This document shows positions 18,985-62,663 of a DNA stretch of 64,000 nt, piece by piece. The number at the start of each line of letters is the position of its first letter. Position 1 is the first letter of the stretch. The notes below the pieces were generated by a model. It was not told the DNA's origin. It worked only from the letters and a program-made list of their open reading frames with translations, and searched no databases. The position numbers and the translations under genes were made by a program. The stretch comes from Pelagomonas calceolata (Eukaryota; Sar; Pelagophyceae; Pelagomonadales; Pelagomonadaceae), in NCBI GenBank assembly GCA_918797485.1, contig CAKKNE010000004.1, positions 1,798,001 through 1,862,000 of the forward strand, in the 5' to 3' direction.

Positions 18985-19075
18985 GCAAATTACGGTACCT
19001 ACGGTACGGTCCTTCATAACTTAACAAAATACCTACGGTACGGTACCTACGGTACCTATGTATTCATACGGTATT
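18985..19075. repeat. GGTACC(TAC/GTA) array
   Basis: Palindromic GGTACC units separated by TAC or GTA, about five imperfect copies, just upstream of the glycosyltransferase gene. The same array recurs at 23196-23310 and 40608-40720. Confidence 0.75.
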
Positions 19076-19130: not shown

Positions 19131-22100
19131 ATGGATGGCTTCAGGTTGCTCCTGGCATATTGTGTACTCGTTGCTTTCGCTCGAAGCACAAATCTTGATC
19201 TTGGTTTAAAGATCGCATTGCATGCCCAATCTAAGTCCTCTCTACATGGTTGGGTTGCCGGCTCCGAGGTCACTACGCGTGGACTGCGACGTGCCTTCCT
19301 CAAAAGGGCTGATGTTTCGATTGTGGAGATATTTGCTCCATTTTGCTATGAAGGTGCTCAAAATTTCACGGCGCCTTCCACGGCATCGTCGCGACGTCTG
19401 CTTACACGCCTGACTTAGGAATTGCCCACCAATGGGATATGTTACTCGTAGAGGGGTTTTCCGGTCCTGTCTATTCCAGGTGCACAAATCAAATTTCACT
19501 GCGCCTTTCGCTATCAACGCAGCGTCTGCTCGATCGCATGGTAGTGCGGGTCTCTCACCACTCGGCTTGGCCAGCACGGCTGCGTTGTCGCCGAGCAATG
19601 ACTTTGTGAAGAATTATCCAGGTGCACCTGACTCAGTGGTTGAGTTGCACACAGGTCCAGTCTGTAATACGTGGCATGCGTCGGTTTAATAAACAAATCG
19701 CTGTGTTCCATTCTGTGTGGAAAGCAAATTAGGCGGCCCGTGCGCCATCGATGCGATGTCATCCCGTAACTGCGCCTGCTCGATGGCGTGGAGGTTGACG
19801 AAGCACTCTCGCAGTAATTCTCAGATAACCTGACTCGCTGGTTGATTTCCACACAGGTTCCATTGGTGTCTGGACACATATCCAACACTCGCCTCGGTAG
19901 CAGCGATTGATGTCGATAGTTTTCTCACAAACTCACGGCTTTTGGCATTACATGGGTTTACTATGGCAGGTGGTAATGTTCTTGGTTTGGCGTCACCTTG
20001 GTTTCACAAGGCCGTCGGCGACTCGGCGCGGACATGACTCTTCAGCGTGAGACGTGTCGACTGCGTCAACGCGACGGCGTCGCTCCACGCAGAACCTCGC
20101 ACCTCGTGAGTTCGTAGCACTCGCCGTGGATACTAGAGAAATGAAACCACCGTCTGACGCGCGCGCGCAACGATCTGTGTAGAAAATCGTACTCTTCACC
20201 CTCCACACCATACAGTTAATGGGATGGCATCGCGTCGATGGCGTAGGGGCTGACTCGATCGACCTCAAAGATGGTCTCCGCACAGGCATCCCTCCAGCAA
20301 TGATACTGTCGTTGTGTATCTTGGGCAGCCCTCATACAGCAAAGCGCTACTCGCCAAGACACTTCTTGCTCTGTATGACGTTCCCGGTGTAAGGCTGAAA
20401 ATCTATGGGTCTGCGTGGGATCATTTTTCGCTGCAAGACAAGGATTATGCGCGGCTGGCGGCTTGCTGCTGGCAAGGCAGACTCCCTAGTGGTAGCATCG
20501 CCAGACTTTATGCAAATGCAACCGTAATACTCGGCACAACCGATTCTTCACAGCGGCGCCTGGGCATGGTGAACAACCGTGTATTTGAGGCACTCGCGTG
20601 CAGCGGTGGTCAATTTGTTGCTGTTGAAGAGCGTGGAGTAGACTTTTTCTCCGAGTTGCGAGGTGCAATAAGATCGCATGGTGTCGTAACTTACGCGACG
20701 ACTGATGGAATTAAAGCAATCACAGATCTGCTAGTTGCGTATCACCCCTCCTCGACCTTACTACGTCGCGTTGCTGCTAAAGCACGCGCACATGCAATTA
20801 GGCATCACACATACGACACACGGGCGGCGATAATCTTAAATGTCGCTGCACGTCACTACAATAGTGTAAGATCACAAAAACCACGATCCGGTCGGCCCAT
20901 AGTCACCGTTATTGTTGACGGTGGCGACATCGTAGACTGGGAATTCATATACGGACTATTACCAGCATTCTTGGCGCATGATCGTGAATGGCAGTTACGA
21001 GTATTCGATGCAAGCACCATGGATGTCAACGCAATCGCTGGTTCGGCGCTTGTAGTGGCTCGTGGTCCTTGGGGTGGTGTTGCCATGCGCCTAGTCAGCG
21101 CGTTGGATGATTTTGCAGCATGCGCCACAGGGGGTGGGATCCGTGGTATGCCACGGCGCCCGGTGACCGCGATTTCCCTTCAACATGTACGCAGTCCAGC
21201 TCTGCCCATGGGCATAAATTGCAAGGAAGTGTTAAGATTTGATGCGATATTTCATGATTCTATCGTTTCCAAACTGCCTCTGTGTCTCGAGCATCACCCC
21301 AACGCACGGGTTGCCCTTGGCGTTAATGTAGCCGCGCTCCATAAGGATTGGTTTTGTTCGACTACTGGTTCCTGCGCAGGCTCAGCTAATGGTCGAGATA
21401 ATTACGAGACAAGAAAGCTATGGGTTTATAACAAAAACACCGCCCCTAAGCAAGAGATGGAATGTCTGGATTGGTACGACTTTGCTAGTTGGAATGGGGG
21501 AAAACATATTAGATCGTACCGTCGTCGATGTGTCCATGTTCAACGACTGATGCGTGCAGAGACGTTCCTTGCAGTTCTGCGGTCTAGTCAGCCCCTTGGA
21601 CTTCTATTTTCACAACCAAGCGACATAGGAACCTTCCTGTATCTCGCCAGTCTTGCTGTTGGTGCTGTTATTCGCACTCCAGGTGATAATGCATCATTGG
21701 TGCGCGTCCTTTCGCTCGGTCCGAAGATCTTAGCTAATTATTTTTGTCTTGAAACTCTGACAAATGTGCTCGTAAATACCTTAGTTTGGACATTGGATTC
21801 CCCACGGTCGATAGCTGACCTTGAAATCATGGCCCCAGGAGAAGAAGACACCCTTGTTTGCAGTCACGATGTGCAGAACCCTGGCTCAATCTGGAAATGC
21901 TCTATCCCGGTGACAGTTAGTCTACAATCGTTCGTGCCTCCAGACGATGGTGTCTGGTGTGTGCATGTCAACGAAATTGAACTCGTTTGCCAGGGTGACA
22001 CAAAAGAACAAGTGAGGGCTGACTTTGAATTTGATCTGGGAGACATGACAGCTTACACTGTTCGCGTCTGTGCTGTTCTTCGGAGTCCCAACGCAGACCT

Positions 22101-22155: not shown

Positions 22156-23195
22156 GGTGATGGTCGAACTGTTTGCATGTGATGTCGAAGTAAGTCAGGG
22201 TAGTCCTTCAAGTTGACTTGAACGCCAACTACATAATACATACACCACTATCTATTCTCCCATCGCGCCTCGCCGCGCGACATCGAAGCGGCACCTCCCG
22301 GGCCTCCGGCTCAGGCTGCCAGTACGCGCCGGCCCGGCCCGCCGGGGCTACAACGAGTCCGGGTCTGTGTGACTCGGACTTTCGGTCACGATGATGAGGG
22401 ACCTCCGGCAGGTCGGCTGTCGGGGCTGCCTCAGGATCCGCGCAAGCTCCGCCTGGCTCCCGCCATTTTCGAGTTAGCGAGCAATCAACCCAGGGAGATC
22501 CAGGGCTATCTGATGAAAAGAATCAACTATTTGCGATTGAGACGACGGCACTCAGAGGCCTGGTGAATATCCTTTTTATGCGAAGTTCGCTGTCACTGAC
22601 CCAAAGGTATGATCCACGTGTGAGAATATCAGTATTGGCTTCATCAAGAATGACATTGCCTAATGCAACCTCTGCCTTGAGGCCGGAAACACTCCCCCCA
22701 TTAGCAATGTAGTCCTTGATGCTGGACGCGCTGTTGAGAGCCCTATTTTCGCTCTTCTTAATACGATGCAGAGGAAGCATGGCTGTTGCGAGGCTGTTGC
22801 CCTCCGCATGAGACAGGTCATACCCCGGGGAGTCGGATACAAGCCCCACCAGTAGGGCCGAATGCTGCATCTCATGTGACCGCACTGTAAGGTTTAGTGG
22901 CAGGTGACCGTCGCAAGAGGGAGGTTTGTATAGAGTAGCCTCCTGCAGGCCTGGGGGTGCCTACTGTGTCTCATCTTCCCATAGTAATTTCTCCCCCTCT
23001 TCACATGTATCGTGTTGCCTTTATTATCCGCAACTTGAAAAACGGTGACCACAAAACAACCCACCGTTTTGCGTGGCAATCGCTCCGAGTCAACGCAGAA
23101 TTCTGGGGCATAATTCACCGTGACAGCGGCGGAGGGGCTAGGCTTTGGCAATTCCGACATTGAAAGCGGCTCGCTGAATTCCCAGTGCTCTTCAC
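22156..23195. other. Intergenic region after the glycosyltransferase gene
   Basis: No supported gene apart from a weak minus-strand ORF (22523-22885) listed separately. Words of the XY rule occur, including a TTCAAGTT near 22206, a decayed GACTCGGA near 22371 and ACCGTGAC at 23117-23124. Confidence 0.45.
22523..22885 (-). CDS. Unrecognised small ORF
   Basis: 120 codons, ATG at 22885. The product has a plausible amino-acid mix (ALLVGLVSDSPGYDLSHAEG, SVSGLKAEVALGNVILDEA) and no long low-complexity runs, but no recognisable domain. It could be a fragment of a retroelement polyprotein or a chance ORF. No neighbouring exon could be joined to it convincingly. Confidence 0.3.
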   Translation of the reverse strand: MRSHEMQHSALLVGLVSDSPGYDLSHAEGNSLATAMLPLHRIKKSENRALNSASSIKDYIANGGSVSGLKAEVALGNVILDEANTDILTRGSYLWVSDSELRIKRIFTRPLSAVVSIANS

Positions 23196-23310
23196 GGTAC
23201 CGTACCGTAGGTACCGTAGGTACCTACCGTAGGTACCCTAGGTACCTACCGTAGGTACCGTAGGTACCGTAGGTACCAGCAAGTACGTACCTACGGTACG
23301 GTACTGAAAG
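23196..23310. repeat. GGTACC(GTA/TAC) array
   Basis: About ten GGTACC palindromes, perfect or slightly degenerate, spaced by GTA or TAC (9-base period GTACCGTAG). It lies immediately upstream of the coiled-coil gene. The sequence is its own near reverse complement over most of its length, so it can form cruciforms. Confidence 0.85.
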
Positions 23311-23515
23311 ATCACTAGTAATACTGTACCAGCTCACGCACATCCCGCGCAGCGCCGGGGAAGTGCGGAATTACACACCCTTTATTTCCCCCCCTGCATC
23401 GCAGGGAGCCGCGCAGAACTTGAAGCTGAGATCGTGTGGACAGCGTGCTCAGCGCCGGGTCAACCGCCGATGCTACCAATTATTTTCAGGTAATGATGAT
23501 CCTTGACGCTGTTAG

Positions 23516-24708: not shown

Positions 24709-25062
24709 TAACCTGCGATGCAGAGGGAAATAGAGCGTGTAGCTCCGGACTTCCCCGGCAGCGTAGTGTAGTCGTCTAACGAAATGGTTTCTCCCATGTT
24801 TGATGGGGTTTGCGACGGGAAATTCGTCCGTCAATAAAAGGTGACTCAGGATGATAATAGTTAGGAGTGAGAGGCGACTTCCCCCTACTAAGGGGATATC
24901 GGAGTCACGGTCACTACCGTGCCAGTGATGGTACCGTAGGTACCCTCAGGCTAGGATGGGAAGTAGCCTAGGCGGGTAATACAAGTGCGGGTTGTGCTTG
25001 GATACGTCTCAGTTGAGCCTTGGGATCCTACTAGACGTGTATTTCCATTGCACTCTCTTCGA
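24709..25062 (+). repeat. Repeat family A, full copy
   Basis: About 350 bp: GATGCAGAGGGAAATAGAG at the left, CGTCTAACGAAATGGTTTCT, GTCCGTCAATAAAAGGTGAC, GGGGATATCGGAGT and TACGTCTCAGTTGA, ending in GTGTATTTCCATTGCAC. It matches 51945-52262 almost base for base except for a 36-bp and a 6-bp block present only here (24906-24941, and a 6-bp block within the CTCAGGCT word at 24945-24952). The minus strand opens a frame reading LTDEFPVANPIKHG that is partly kept in other copies. No terminal repeats are visible; it could be a SINE or MITE. Confidence 0.85.
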
Positions 25063-40607: not shown

Positions 40608-40720
40608 CTCGTCCTACCACGGCACCTACTGCGGTACCTACGGTACGGTACAAGCTGGTACCTACGGTACCTACGGTACCTACGGTACTGACCTACCACG
40701 GTATGGTACCGTAGGTATTC
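40608..40720. repeat. GGTACC(TAC) array upstream of WW/armadillo gene
   Basis: About seven GGTACC or near-GGTACC palindromes spaced by TAC/GTA. Read on the minus strand it would add an RYRRYR tail to the coding frame, so I placed the start downstream at 40579. Confidence 0.8.
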
Positions 40721-40831: not shown

Positions 40832-40982
40832 TTCAAGTTCACTGGCAAGCCTGCCAGTGACTCGGCCCGGGAGCCACTGCCAGTGAGTGCCAGTGACGGT
40901 CACGGTTGAATAGTATTTCAATAACTTGAACCTGAAGGAATCGAGGACGAAGCCTGAGTCGGAAGGACTCGGACACCGTGAC
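40832..40982. repeat. Dense block of XY-C-rc(XY)-G-XY words
   Basis: Twelve exact rule words in 151 bp: TTCAAGTT 40832, CACTGGCA 40840, TGCCAGTG 40852, GGCCCGGG 40864, TGCCAGTG 40878 and 40888, GTCACGGT 40899, AACTTGAA 40923, AGCCTGAG 40951, GACTCGGA 40966, ACCGTGAC 40975, plus a GACTCGGA split by the GGCCCGGG. Chance predicts about 0.03. The neighbouring 40983-41280 stretch continues with GGCCCGGG, GACTCGGA, CACTGGCA and GTCACGGT (41265-41272). Confidence 0.9.
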
Positions 40983-42114
40983 AGGCCCAGGCGCGGCGGC
41001 CCCGGCGGGCCGGGCCCGGGGGGTCCACATCCGACTCGGAGTCGCCGGGCACTGGCAGTGACCATGACAGCGGCTCGGGGCCCGGGCCGGGCCCGGGCGC
41101 CGCTCGGCGCAGATGCTCGGTACCGCTTTTTTGCGTCGCGCCCCCAGGCTCACTGGAAAGGGCAACACCTCAGCCTGAGAGGCTCAGCTAAAAATACGGG
41201 CATTTTACAAGTCGATTCCCCGGGCCGTCCGAGTCCCCCTAGTACTAGCATCTTGAAAGTGGAAGTCACGGTGGTGCCATAGAGTGGTGCAATAAATAAA
41301 TACTTACCAGGAGATTGAGAATTTGCTCTACCGTTTCTTGACGTCTCTTTTTAGGCGCCGGCTGGGTATCCTAGCCGCGCCGCAGGGAGAAGGCCTCTAG
41401 AGGCTTGGTGTATGTCCTTTTCCTTCAGGATATTTCTTCCTTAATTAATTATTTATTTATTTTATTTTTAAGCATCGAGGACAGACTCAGCGAGGACACA
41501 GCCTGAGTCACGGTGAGATCATTTCAGTTGGGGAGGAATAACCTTGCACCCGAGCCGCTAGTCTGAGCGGTCGCAATACGACGCGCGGAAGCTGAATTGG
41601 TAAATAAATGCCTTGCCACACGACGGCATTGATGGCACTGATGGCCTACCGAGCGGCTGTTTATAATGGTGCTGCCGGTCTTTTATTATTTATTGACGCA
41701 CCGGGATGCTCCCGGTAGCCTGAGCAGACCAGTGTAAAAAAAGGCTGGCCATGGGCTGCACGGCCCGGGCGCAGCAGAAAAAAAAAATGGATCTGTCCTA
41801 GTAGTCTGGATCCGTTGTGCAGTAACCCATTCTAGTTAGAACCAACTTCAAGCAAGGGAAGATAAGGCAGAAAGTCACGTGACCCAAAGATTTTAACGGT
41901 GACTGGCTCCATCTTTGCTTAGGGGCCTGGTAGGGTCAAGTTTCTTGGTCGGCATCATGATTTTGAAGGAGGCTGATGATGCTTAGGGTAAAGCAATACC
42001 CTGCCCAAGCCGCCAGAGGAGTCGAACGATCTTAAATGATCACGTGCACAATTCTACCATGCAAGCTATCTTACGAGAGCCCAGAGCTAGCCTACAGCCA
42101 CAAACTCTATACGC
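40983..42114. other. Intergenic region with rule words and repeat D
   Basis: No gene. Contains an inverted copy of repeat D (41340-41470), overlapping AGCCTGAG (41500-41507) and GTCACGGT (41507-41514), and an A-rich run near 41777. The remainder is unremarkable. Confidence 0.5.
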
Positions 42115-43232
42115 TCAGGTCTGGCAGTCTTTTTTTTTCTTTGCTCTTCTCGTCGCCGCACGTAGCGCCCGCTCATTCGCGGACCGTCGAGGATGTGTGC
42201 GATCGGCACTCTGTTGTGCGTACTCCATCCTCGTCTTGCGTTTTTGGTAATCTCCCCATGCACTGGTCTCTGGATTTTTTGCGTTGAGTTCCCGAAGCCG
42301 CCTTTCAACCTCCCGTTGTTTGGCTTTTTGGACTTGGAGCTCTGCTTCACTTAAAGTTTTTTCAGCCTGTGCATCATCTACGGGGAATAGCTTGCGGAAT
42401 GCGGCTCTTTGCGCAGGGCAAAACATGTATCTAAGAAGGCCCATTTTTTTTCGGATGCGCTTCTCGCGTAGTTTCAATAAACGAGCGTGTTCTTTTCGTG
42501 CCGCAAGCTGTTCAATCATATCACGCCGAACCTTCTCCTCGTGGAGATATCTTTTTTTCTTGTCCCACCATCGCTGACCCATGGTCTGAGTAATCATGGT
42601 CTGCTGGATCCTGAATGCTGGGTAAAAGAGCGCCGGAAACAGAACATGGAAACGATTAAACTCTTGCCAGTCTACCTTCTCATCATCGTTGAAGTCTAGC
42701 AATTCCAGCGCGTTTCGCGTGTTGCCTGAGAAGTCATTTGGAGGTACGATATGATACAGTACCCTCAACATGAGCTCAAGCTCCTCCTTCATGATGTATC
42801 CATTTTTATCCCGATCAAATATGTAGAAACAAAAGCGAAGGATCTCCTGTGGTTCGAAGAGGCAATACCTATATAGTTGCGAAATACTCAACACGCGAGA
42901 TCTCGCTTGCAATCAATTTCTCACGTAATCACTGCGACAAGATACTCGCCAAAGTCGAGTTCCTCGGTATGGTGTATGTCGCACAGGTCGAAAATTCCAT
43001 CACCAAAAATTGACCGCTTTTCGTGAAACAGCAAGTAAAATTGGTCAATTGCAATAACACCCAGCATTTCCTTGTCGCCTTCCCGGAAGTGGCGCCAGAA
43101 AACAGCCAATTCCTTGACACCAACTGCCAAACGCGCATTAACTAGTTCAAAGTTACGGCACGCACTGTTTATGAATTCCATTACCTTCAGCGTTCGATGG
43201 TCGGGGTTTGGCACAGTCATCGATGCACCCAT
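42115..43232 (-). CDS. EF-hand calcium-binding protein, likely N-myristoylated
   Basis: Two exons, 43232-42925 and 42868-42115, joined in frame over a 56-bp GTGAGAAA...TATATAG intron; 353 residues. The start MGASMT fits an N-myristoylation site (Gly2, Thr6). A calcineurin-B-like N-terminal half contains a degenerate EF-hand (FLVMEFS region read as IFGDGIFDLCDIHHTEELDF). Exon 2 has two canonical loops, DRDKNGYIMKEE and DFNDDEKVDWQE. The C-terminal 200 residues are a highly basic, charged helix (KAKQREVERRLRELNAK and an Arg/Lys-rich tail). It probably acts as a membrane-tethered calcium sensor; the target is unknown. Confidence 0.85.
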
Positions 43233-44572
43233 GGGTTGAACACAATTATTGTACGGTTATTAGAATTAGAATCATCTGCGTTCGGAGGTACCTACGGTAT
43301 AGCAAGAGTATGTCGCAGCGTTACGTAAAGTAGTAGGGTCCTAGCTCACCAGCCAGAGGCTGGGCCAAGCCAACTACGAGAGTGTTTTATAGTAAATTGG
43401 TTTACACACCGTAGCGTCGATAGACACTCAATACATATCTAGGGTAGGATGGGCTAGTAGGTTTCTCTCTCTACTCCCCTTGGACGCGAGCGTTCATCAG
43501 ATGCCCTTCTCCATGTTCAGCGCTTCGAGGTCCGCAGGCGCATATGAGAATCCAGATGCAATAAGTCCTATACGAACTTTACGAGATGAATCATCCGTTA
43601 CCGTGGCAGTTCTGAACGCGATCATGACTCGGATATGACACCGTGACCCACCCCGGGCCGAGGGTGGAGCACGTAGTTGTGCATCACCTCTTCTGAACGG
43701 GGAGAAGGGTGCATCCTCGAGTGCATACTTAAATTTTGGTGGTATATTCACCTTTTGCTCTTTGTAGGCCCGGGTAAATAAATAAAGACAGCGGCCTGAG
43801 TGACTCGGACTCTGACTCGGCCCGGGAGCCTGAGAAATAACTTGAAATACCTGCTAGTACTAGTAGGTAAATGATAAACTTGAAGGAAGCCTGAGGAATA
43901 TCCTAAAAAAAGGGACATGTGACCAAGCCTCCAAAGGCCTCAGGCTTTCCCTGCGCGCCTAGTACTTTAGTTAGGGGCATCCTATTGTTTATAATACTAT
44001 GATACATACAAAAATTAAAAAAAAAATTAGCCTAATAACTAAGCCTGAGGAAGCCAGCCTCAGCTGACTTGGTGACCTAAAACTTCAAGTTGAAAATATT
44101 TATAGGTCGAATTCAGCCAAGGCCCGGGGGGTACAGGCAGTGTGCAGGTTCTATTGTAGTACGCCTATACATCTCTATACTGCCTATATACCTCTTGGAT
44201 TTGGCCAAGGGACTCGCCCGGGCCAAGGGCAGGCCTCCCCGAAGAAAACTTACTAACCAAACTCACTTTCGGCAGCTACCATCTTGATTTCCTGGAGGAT
44301 TTCTCCCGTCCGCAGCCTATTGCTATTCCAGCAACTCTTGCGCAAGTGGCAGTCGTCCCGCGCCAGTTGCGTTCGTGCTGCATCGCACGATCTGTTGGCT
44401 TGACGGCCGTGTTTGCACATCCTACCGACGCCACAACAAAGTACCCAGGATCCCCCCGGAGAGGAAACTGCTAGCACAGAGGCGAATTCACCAAAATTGA
44501 CTCCTGAGTGAGTGAGTACCCCCACTTTTCCGGGTCGAGAAAAACATGCGCCACTAAGGCAAGAGCTAGGCA
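43233..44572. other. Intergenic region with a second dense word block
   Basis: No gene. Between 43786 and 43900 there are GACTCGGA 43802, GGCCCGGG 43819, AGCCTGAG 43827, AACTTGAA 43839, TACTAGTA 43858, then another AACTTGAA and AGCCTGAG. ACCGTGAC lies at 43640-43647. A partial repeat D copy sits at 43895-43960. A minus-strand ORF at 43497-43751 has no motif. Confidence 0.55.
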
Positions 44573-51944: not shown

Positions 51945-52262
51945 TGCGATGCATAGGGAAATAGAGTGTGTAGCTCCGGATTTCCCCGGTAGCGTAGTGT
52001 AGTCGTCTAACGAAATGGTTTCTCCCCGGGCCATGTTTGATGGGGTTTGTGACGGGAAATTCGTCCCGGGCCGTCAATAAAAGGTGACTCAGGATGATAG
52101 TTAGGAGTGAGAGGCGACTTCCCCCTACTAAGGGGATATCGGAGTACCCTAGGATGGGAAGTAGCCTAAGCGGGTAATACAAGTACGGGTTGTGCTTGGA
52201 TACGTCTCAGTTGAACCTTTGGGATCCTAGTAGTACTAGACGTGTATTTCCATTGCACAGGG
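51945..52262 (+). repeat. Repeat family A, full copy
   Basis: Aligns over its whole length to 24709-25062. It has three 6-bp blocks absent there: CCCGGGCC replaces CC at 52025-52032 and again at 52065-52072, and a TAG-containing hexamer lies in 52229-52236. It lacks the 36-bp and 6-bp blocks of the 24.9-kb copy (continuous GGAGTACCCTAGGATGGG at 52141-52158). Confidence 0.88.
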
Positions 52263-55084: not shown

Positions 55085-55375
55085 GACTTGCAGCATCCGC
55101 CAATAAAAGTGACTCAGGATGAATGTATCATAGTTAGGAGTGGGAGGCGATCATGATTTCCCCCTATAACTTGAAGGGGATATCGGAGTACCCTGCAGGG
55201 TGGGACCGTGACGTAAACACCTAGCAAACGTTTACTTCTCCCCTCCGAGAGGCCTCCAAACACTTGCCATCACGTCCCACCCTGGTACCCTGCTAGGATC
55301 ATGGGGGTAGGTAATACAAGTACGGGTCACGGTTGTGCATGGATACGTCTCAGTGAATTTCCATTGCAACCCCCC
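55085..55375 (+). repeat. Repeat family A copy with nested inverted-repeat element
   Basis: Matches CAATAAAAGTGACTCAGGAT, GGGGATATCGGAGTACCCT and ATACGTCTCAGT of the other copies, but carries ATCATGAT (55150-55157), AACTTGAA (55168-55175) and GTCACGGT (55326-55333) where they have AC/AT, AA and GT. Between 55190 and 55295 a roughly 105-bp element with inverted ends (left CAGGGTGGGA..., right ...TCACGTCCCACCCTG) interrupts the repeat. Confidence 0.8.
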
Positions 55376-62052: not shown

Positions 62053-62229
62053 TTGCGATGCATAGGGAAATAGAGTGTGTAGCCCCGGACTTCCCCGGCA
62101 GCGTAGTGTAGTCGTCTAACGAAATAGTTTCTCCCATGTTTGATGGGGTTTGTGACGGGGAATTGCGTCCGTCAATAAAAGTGACTCAGGATGATAATAG
62201 TTAGGAGTGAGAGGCGACTTCCCCCTACA
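62053..62229 (+). repeat. Repeat family A, truncated copy
   Basis: Matches the left half of the 24.7-kb and 51.9-kb copies (GATGCATAGGGAAATAGAGT onward) and stops abruptly after CGACTTCCCCCTAC. It has none of the extra hexamers of the other copies, so it shows the empty state (TCTCCCATG; CGTCCGTCAATAAAAG). Confidence 0.85.
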
Positions 62230-62663
62230 AAAGTCATGGAATTCAGTATTTCGGAGTAATCAATCTCTTTCTGGCTATTGGACCAGTGCTCAACGTAGTT
62301 AGCCACTGGCAGTAGACAATAATCTTTGACATGTTCATTTACGTCATACGTAGTCCCAGGTAAATGTTCGGTAGACTTTTCTGTTGCGTACATAAGAGAC
62401 TCGGGCTGGTACTTGATCGCCACAAGCTGCGCTTGTGTTATACCCAGTGCCTTGGCAATCTGTTTATCTTGCTCATAAAGACTCCAGATCTTCTGTTTCT
62501 CAGCCTTCGATAGGTGTCTGCTGGGTCCTGTTTCGTTTCCATAGTTGGTGAGGGAGCTTTTTGGTTCGTACCACAGTTTCATAAAGTTGAAAAAGCTTTG
62601 ACGGTCAATTCTCTCTCCCCCGGAACGGAGTAGGGTCCAGTCAGCTTGAGCACCGTTCTCCAT
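62172..62663 (-). CDS. Unrecognised ORF whose C-terminus runs into repeat A
   Basis: 163 codons, ATG at 62663 next to the TG-repeat. Residues 1-143 have normal composition (GGERIDRQSFFNFMKLWYEP; LSKAEKQKIWSLYEQDKQIA, a possible helix-turn-helix), but the last about 18 residues are encoded by repeat family A (antisense LSLLTIIILSH). Either the repeat truncated an older gene, or this is a 3'-terminal exon with exonised repeat. It lies directly downstream of, and in the same orientation as, IFT140. Confidence 0.45.
   Translation of the reverse strand: MENGAQADWTLLRSGGERIDRQSFFNFMKLWYEPKSSLTNYGNETGPSRHLSKAEKQKIWSLYEQDKQIAKALGITQAQLVAIKYQPESLMYATEKSTEHLPGTTYDVNEHVKDYCLLPVANYVEHWSNSQKEIDYSEILNSMTFVGGSRLSLLTIIILSHFY

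Follow-up and report, generated by a model that had tools for sequence, protein, structure and literature searches.

A stretch of 64,000 nucleotides of the Pelagomonas calceolata genome (bases 1,798,001-1,862,000 of contig 4; hereafter the window) contains many copies of an 8-bp word of the form XY-C-rc(XY)-G-XY, where XY is a dinucleotide and rc(XY), or z, its reverse complement. In this study, we found that these rule words, written XYCzGXY, are insertions, each converting a single XY into XYCzGXY with an exact gain of 6 bp. The initial annotation, which first proposed the rule, regarded the non-coding DNA as built from such words; instead, paralogous copies with a single XY at the empty site indicate discrete 6-bp insertions into pre-existing sequence. 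With a probability of about one half, we interpret the words as excision scars of a putative cut-and-paste element with a 2-bp target duplication, C...G ends and hairpin-capped flanks annealing through the duplication.

The window holds 177 rule words of all 16 types versus 18.0 expected from a dinucleotide Markov model, which confirms the algebraic rule, and its closure under strand reversal also holds. All 20 positions previously given for ACCGTGAC/GTCACGGT were correct, the full window count being 24 (15+9, with about 1.7 expected), and positions 43802-43865 contain five words as claimed, whereas 40832-40982 contain 11 rather than 12. The control forms suggested with the rule, XY-G-rc(XY)-C-XY, XY-C-XY-G-XY and XY-A-rc(XY)-T-XY, occur 56, 50 and 17 times, all below 177, and the first of these counts is inflated because tandem rule words include that form; the highest other form in the same control table, XY-G-XY-G-XY, reaches 71. 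In a scan of T(k)-A-rc(T)-B-T patterns (k=1-4, spacers of 0-3), the one with k=2, one C and one G stood out; the k=3 version with C and G gave 8 words, and on this basis we discarded longer target duplications as the prevailing form. Furthermore, the rule was the top pattern by a wide margin (93 vs 3.6 expected; runner-up 44 vs 3.2) in a survey of symbolic patterns counted outside stop-to-stop open reading frames (ORFs) of at least 120 codons; in these patterns XY is followed by six symbols, each of them a base, X, Y or a complement, and two or more of the symbols are relational.

Enrichment extends to 14 of the 16 dinucleotides, at 2.5-7.4 words per 1000 sites with TA inside this common range (3.38), rather than being limited to a few targets of dispersed repeats, and the gap at CG and GC in the initial list is genuine, with 0.23 and 0.40 words per 1000 sites, respectively. 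The reported non-coding bias also holds: of the 169 words of the 14 active dinucleotides, 161 are found outside ORFs of 250 aa or more. The 31,040 nt outside the 20 ORFs of this size contain these 161 words and 41 of the control form, and the 32,960 nt inside them contain 8 and 7, respectively. The flanks of the words are nearly random with only a weak C/G bias, and the words cluster, since 64 of the gaps between neighbouring words are no longer than 30 bp, versus a simulated mean of 22.9 and maximum of 39 (500 simulations); period-6 tandems account for a minority of them.

Filled and empty sites within the window are listed in the table, together with the two densest clusters.

Table. Filled and empty sites, a longer insert, a repeat copy and word clusters in the window.
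Feature	Position	Strand	Remark
Filled site CCCGGGCC	52025..52032	+	single CC in paralogs
Empty site CC	24794..24795	+	counterpart of 52025-52032
Second empty site CC	62134..62135	+	counterpart of 52025-52032
Filled site CCCGGGCC	52065..52072	+	paralog comparison
Empty site CC	24828..24829	+	counterpart of 52065-52072
Filled site CTCAGGCT	24945..24952	+	paralog comparison
Empty site CT	52149..52150	+	counterpart of 24945-24952
Filled site GTCACGGT	55326..55333	+	paralog comparison
Empty site GT	52189..52190	+	counterpart of 55326-55333
Longer insert GT-[C...34 nt...G]-GT	24904..24941	+	single GT in paralog at 52144-52145; two further rule words inside
298-bp LTR-like repeat copy, target record	24714..25053	+	other long window copies at 51945-52258 and 62054-62231
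Dense rule-word cluster	40832..41097	.	11 words in 40832-40982, 6 further up to 41097
Second rule-word cluster	43626..43895	.	11 words, 5 in 43802-43865

Two unrelated repeat families replicate the 6-bp event. The first is a 298-bp long terminal repeat (LTR)-like element with TG...CA ends, at least 47 matches in the genome and 5-bp duplications at three loci (L032, L038 and L039); its copies (L025-L060 and those of the window) are largely full-length and 95-100% identical to the reference copy. Among the 41 copies and fragments examined, 38 were kept and three with less than 93% identity (L054, L058 and w18400) were dropped. The commonest insertion size in the 38 copies is 6 bp (19 events), of which 15 are exact, two have one mismatch and two (w55000 and w61990) are off the rule; the dropped copy L054 has two exact events too. 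The second repeat (L023 5409-5664 and its relatives) has at least 54 matches in the genome, and 35 copies were compared with none dropped, two extra fragments (w58452 and L023r) standing outside this count. Here 6 bp is the second commonest insertion size (7 events) after one bp (11), and six of the seven events are exact, the seventh (L066) being ACCGTGAC adjoining a substitution. Pooled, 21 of the 26 six-bp insertions are exact, or 23 if one mismatch is allowed, compared with 13 of 20,500 random 6-bp insertions. Since the 21 exact events stand alongside 347 substitutions in 15,823 aligned columns, they represent a substantial mutational process in those repeats. Events can also be nested: at L065, TT has become TTCAAGTT, and then the inner AA has become AACTTGAA. 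By our reading, L061 and L023 appear to carry three and five stacked events, respectively.

The assembly comprises 32,445,274 bp in 8 contigs, six of which together account for 32,315,327 bp and the other two for the remaining 129,947 bp; the published description gives 32.4 Mb, six nuclear contigs, a plastid of 90 kb and a mitochondrion of 39 kb (PMC9481584). According to the same source, mean guanine-plus-cytosine (GC) content is 63%, and each contig has a single block of about 259 kb at 52% GC, interpreted as centromeric by the genome's authors, who describe no transposon accumulation there (PMC9481584). The window is assigned to the contig 4 block because its GC content is 52.9%. It contains ordinary genes, several of the 10 ORFs scanned matching known families, including XRN1, a PABP-like RRM/MLLE protein, TIP49 and MIP-T3.

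For comparison across the genome, we used a low-GC sample of 104 kb, made up of the window and four 10-kb stretches (three from contig 1, one from contig 4), and an arm sample of 20 loci (200 kb); the low-GC blocks of contigs 2, 3, 5 and 6 were covered through repeat copies alone. Stretches of weak codon periodicity contain 224 words in the low-GC sample versus 14 expected and 56 of the control form, and comparable arm stretches contain 22 versus 13.5 expected and 14 of the control form; over all arm DNA, there are 76 words of 14 types versus 58 control words. The contig 1 stretches hold 8, 38 and 28 words, none of them of the CG or GC type, and the contig 4 stretch (L024) holds 23, one of which is CG. 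Thus the rule does not extend to non-coding DNA in general, and strong enrichment is found only in the sampled low-GC blocks. Genome-wide, ACCGTGAC is more frequent than its reversed control (911+853, 1764, vs 465+439, 904), and AGCCTGAG is not (841+773, 1614, vs 810+907, 1717). Strand-biased word use on contig 1 was considered and rejected, both orientations being present.

The sequences show the exact 6-bp event, its empty site with a single XY, the duplication and the invariant C and G, and they show that events nest, recur and are concentrated in low-GC non-coding DNA; the element, the hairpin and the annealing step are inferred. In the excision model, each word would be the repaired scar of a double-strand break at a 2-bp target: a cut-and-paste element with C...G termini would insert with a 2-bp duplication, converting XY into XY-[C...G]-XY, and at excision each flank would keep one terminal base, C on the left and G on the right. 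The flanks would then be closed as hairpins, with XY-C-z as a continuous strand, and would be opened into 3' overhangs, C-z and C-XY, which could pair via 2 bp complementary by virtue of the duplication. Gap filling would yield XY-C-z-G-XY with a net gain of 6 bp. XYCzGXY consists of two overlapping palindromes, each with a one-base centre, and the strand XY-C-z is that expected from a hairpin-capped flank in which the C at the 3' end has been linked to the other strand. Owing to the 2-bp duplication, the opened ends would always share two complementary bases, and therefore the product would be fixed whatever the opening position.

When inserts were sorted by the number of bases added between C and G, two added bases were found 265 times versus 23, none 348 versus 352, one 167 versus 194, and three 23 versus 11. 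The enriched arm length thus equals the duplication length, which supports the excision model. The use of fourteen target dinucleotides, as expected of a target duplication, supports it as well, and so do three longer inserts found in repeat copies, each with C...G ends and flanked by a 2-bp duplication, namely TA-[16 nt]-TA (L026), GT-[34 nt]-GT (window 24904) and AT-[9 nt]-AT (L086). Because only 2-base additions are strongly enriched, we rejected the idea that hairpins opened at variable positions give rise to many products. C is over-represented before the site (92 of 265) and G after it (86 of 265), both occurring at 31 sites (29.9 if independent); this excess fits extra pairing of the annealed overhangs.

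Several observations weigh against excision. The flanking C/G excess could be a plain target preference. CG and GC targets give no 6-bp words above background, although CC, GG, AT and TA rise, which the excision model does not explain. The product is nearly invariant, in contrast to the heterogeneous footprints known from hairpin joining (28 types in one Ds assay; PMC5873905). A third repeat stretch (about 119 bp, seven comparisons) has no rule event. Finally, candidate elements with C...G inverted ends and a 2-bp duplication are at chance level in the 104 kb (49 vs 44, 35 and 30 for other first bases), and no element was recognised among the LTR-like copy boundaries listed.

Searches of the genome with a partial set of transposase profiles gave no match for PF00665 or PF13359 and none for PF02992, whose control was likewise silent; PF13358 gave one fragment and PF05699 one match, a hAT element at locus L101. 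This 3,651-bp hAT-type element (L101 3050-6700; contig 4, about 4.4995-4.5032 Mb) has a perfect 20-bp terminal repeat (CAGGGCAGCAG...), is flanked by an 8-bp duplication (TTGCTCGC) and contains an open frame of about 714 aa. It demonstrates the presence of a hairpin-type superfamily in the genome, and as a source of the scars it was rejected because of its 8-bp duplication. At locus L102 (996-2065; contig 3, about 0.64 Mb), a single fragment of a DDE_3 (Tc1/IS630-like) transposase is spread over two open frames. Inverted-repeat elements of the form CTGTGTGGAAA...TTTCCACACAG are found at window 19713-19856, L020 8163-8247 and L024 8784-8867, the first two with 8-bp duplications; we take them to be probably introner elements. 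As no element was found in the DNA examined and the transposase searches were partial, we hold excision at even odds, regard transposon-free breaks as a weaker candidate and place another dedicated process below both.

The leading alternative, possible but in our view rather unlikely, involves no transposon: recurrent, nearly sequence-blind repair of 2-nt staggered breaks in the putative centromeric blocks, with hairpin-type joining writing rc(XY) between C and G. In the specific version that we consider, which is doubtful, a Spo11/Topo VI-type enzyme would leave 2-nt 5' overhangs, fill-in would duplicate XY, an untemplated 3' C would be added, and fold-back or hairpin-type joining would give z. 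SPO11 breaks are indeed described with 2-nt 5' overhangs (PMC12918824), no C...G element was found in the 104 kb, and the scars cluster and are concentrated in the putative centromeric blocks. This route, however, requires an untemplated C every time and a separate origin for z, and XY-CG-XY, which would result directly from adding C twice, is the class without excess (348 vs 352). If the transposon-free reading were true, a dedicated enzyme would enlarge centromeric non-coding DNA by six bases per event.

Less probable again is a dedicated process that makes the insertion without a long element at any stage, such as abortive integration or a polymerase writing C-z-G between the duplicated XY in one step. 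The nearly invariant product and the lack of an element at LTR-like boundaries or in the 104 kb would agree with it, but some longer inserts in repeat copies share the 2-bp duplication and the C...G ends with the scars, and no enzyme is known to write C-z-G between duplicated XY. That the words are ordinary repeats (a satellite, a regulatory motif family, a compositional bias or an assembly artefact) is very improbable despite some period-6 tandems and a (GTACCTACG)n array family in the same DNA, considering that 14 of 16 dinucleotides occur at similar rates with nearly random flanks, that control forms and Markov expectations fail to account for them, that exact empty sites contradict it unless paralogous repeats are misassembled, and that the arms of the same assembly are almost without excess. 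A tandem repeat or satellite, in particular, was rejected, as there are 14 different dispersed words and not one head-to-tail unit.

Besides the 6-bp events, the two families contain 14 insertions of 3 bp, six of which are XY-C-XY or XY-G-XY (four at TA and two at GC), the remaining eight being off-pattern; AT-G-AT occurs inside a larger change at L040, and the dropped copy L054 has one 3-bp event at CA. A self-complementary dinucleotide is present at all seven fitting 3-bp events versus one of the 21 exact 6-bp events (TA). Under the excision model, an overhang with self-complementary XY could pair with the opposite copy of the duplication and yield XY-C-XY. Such pairing may be the basis of the 3-bp class, which leaves the failure of CG and GC versus the success of AT and TA unexplained. 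After masking of the rule words, 63,373 nt of low-GC and for the most part non-coding DNA showed TA-C/G-TA enriched 1.69-fold (1.14 for A/T) and AT-C/G-AT 1.42-fold (1.15 for A/T), with no 3-bp C/G excess at CG and GC.

A 10-bp change at L039 is not reducible to the 6-bp or 3-bp steps or to the longer inserts. Palindromic GTACCTACG arrays are located at window 18998-19050, 23178-23322 and 40613-40717, L023 8324-8438 and L024 5123-5198; their origin from 6-bp and 3-bp steps was rejected, as they are not derivable in this way. TA-CCTACGG-TA occurs in 23 copies in the low-GC sample, at TA only, and is possibly a second insertion rule.

The steps assumed in the excision model have precedents in several systems. 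Mirage elements have a 2-bp target duplication. Tc1/mariner elements target TA, whereas 14 target dinucleotides are used here. Tc1/mariner and Stowaway elements are likewise described as duplicating 2 bp of target and as leaving terminal bases at the site on excision (PMC4561436), and the rarer XY-C-XY and XY-G-XY scars resemble a one-base version of this footprint; however, the Tc1/mariner and Stowaway footprints contain element sequence, where the scars contain the reverse complement of the target. The CACTA-Mirage-Chapaev (CMC) group shares C/G termini (CAC...GTG) and short duplications, 3-4 bp in Chapaev (PMC4079192), although no CMC element or transposase was found here, either in the 104-kb element search or with PF02992, with its silent control. 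In Ac/Ds (hAT) excision, palindromic additions with a one-base centre are likewise found at the joint, where they are explained by hairpin-capped flanks and microhomology joining, and between 85% and nearly 100% of the footprints in Arabidopsis are reported to have microhomology (PMC5873905). Hairpin-capped flanks are described for hAT transposases including the domesticated Kat1, but the hAT target duplication is 8 bp (PMC4763223) as opposed to 2 bp at the scars, and Ac/Ds footprints are heterogeneous, with additions of variable length (PMC5873905), unlike the one nearly invariant product here. For SPO11/Topo VI, 2-nt 5' overhangs with fill-in would give a 2-bp duplication (PMC12918824), yet end joining there supplies neither the fixed C and G nor rc(XY). 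Introner elements differ by an 8-bp duplication and a long conserved terminal repeat, compared with the 4-bp insert and 2-bp duplication here.

In summary, the individual steps of the proposed scar formation are each already known; no description of a near-invariant XYCzGXY scar at 14 dinucleotides in centromere-like blocks was found in the literature searched, and the scar would be more novel still if no element exists. Searches designed for known target duplications would overlook such scars, and the near-invariant product narrowly limits the candidate transposase or repair enzyme. Since the scar is exact, sequence alone suffices to recognise, locate and order the individual events, which would make the scars a natural archive of double-strand breaks in centromere-like chromatin.
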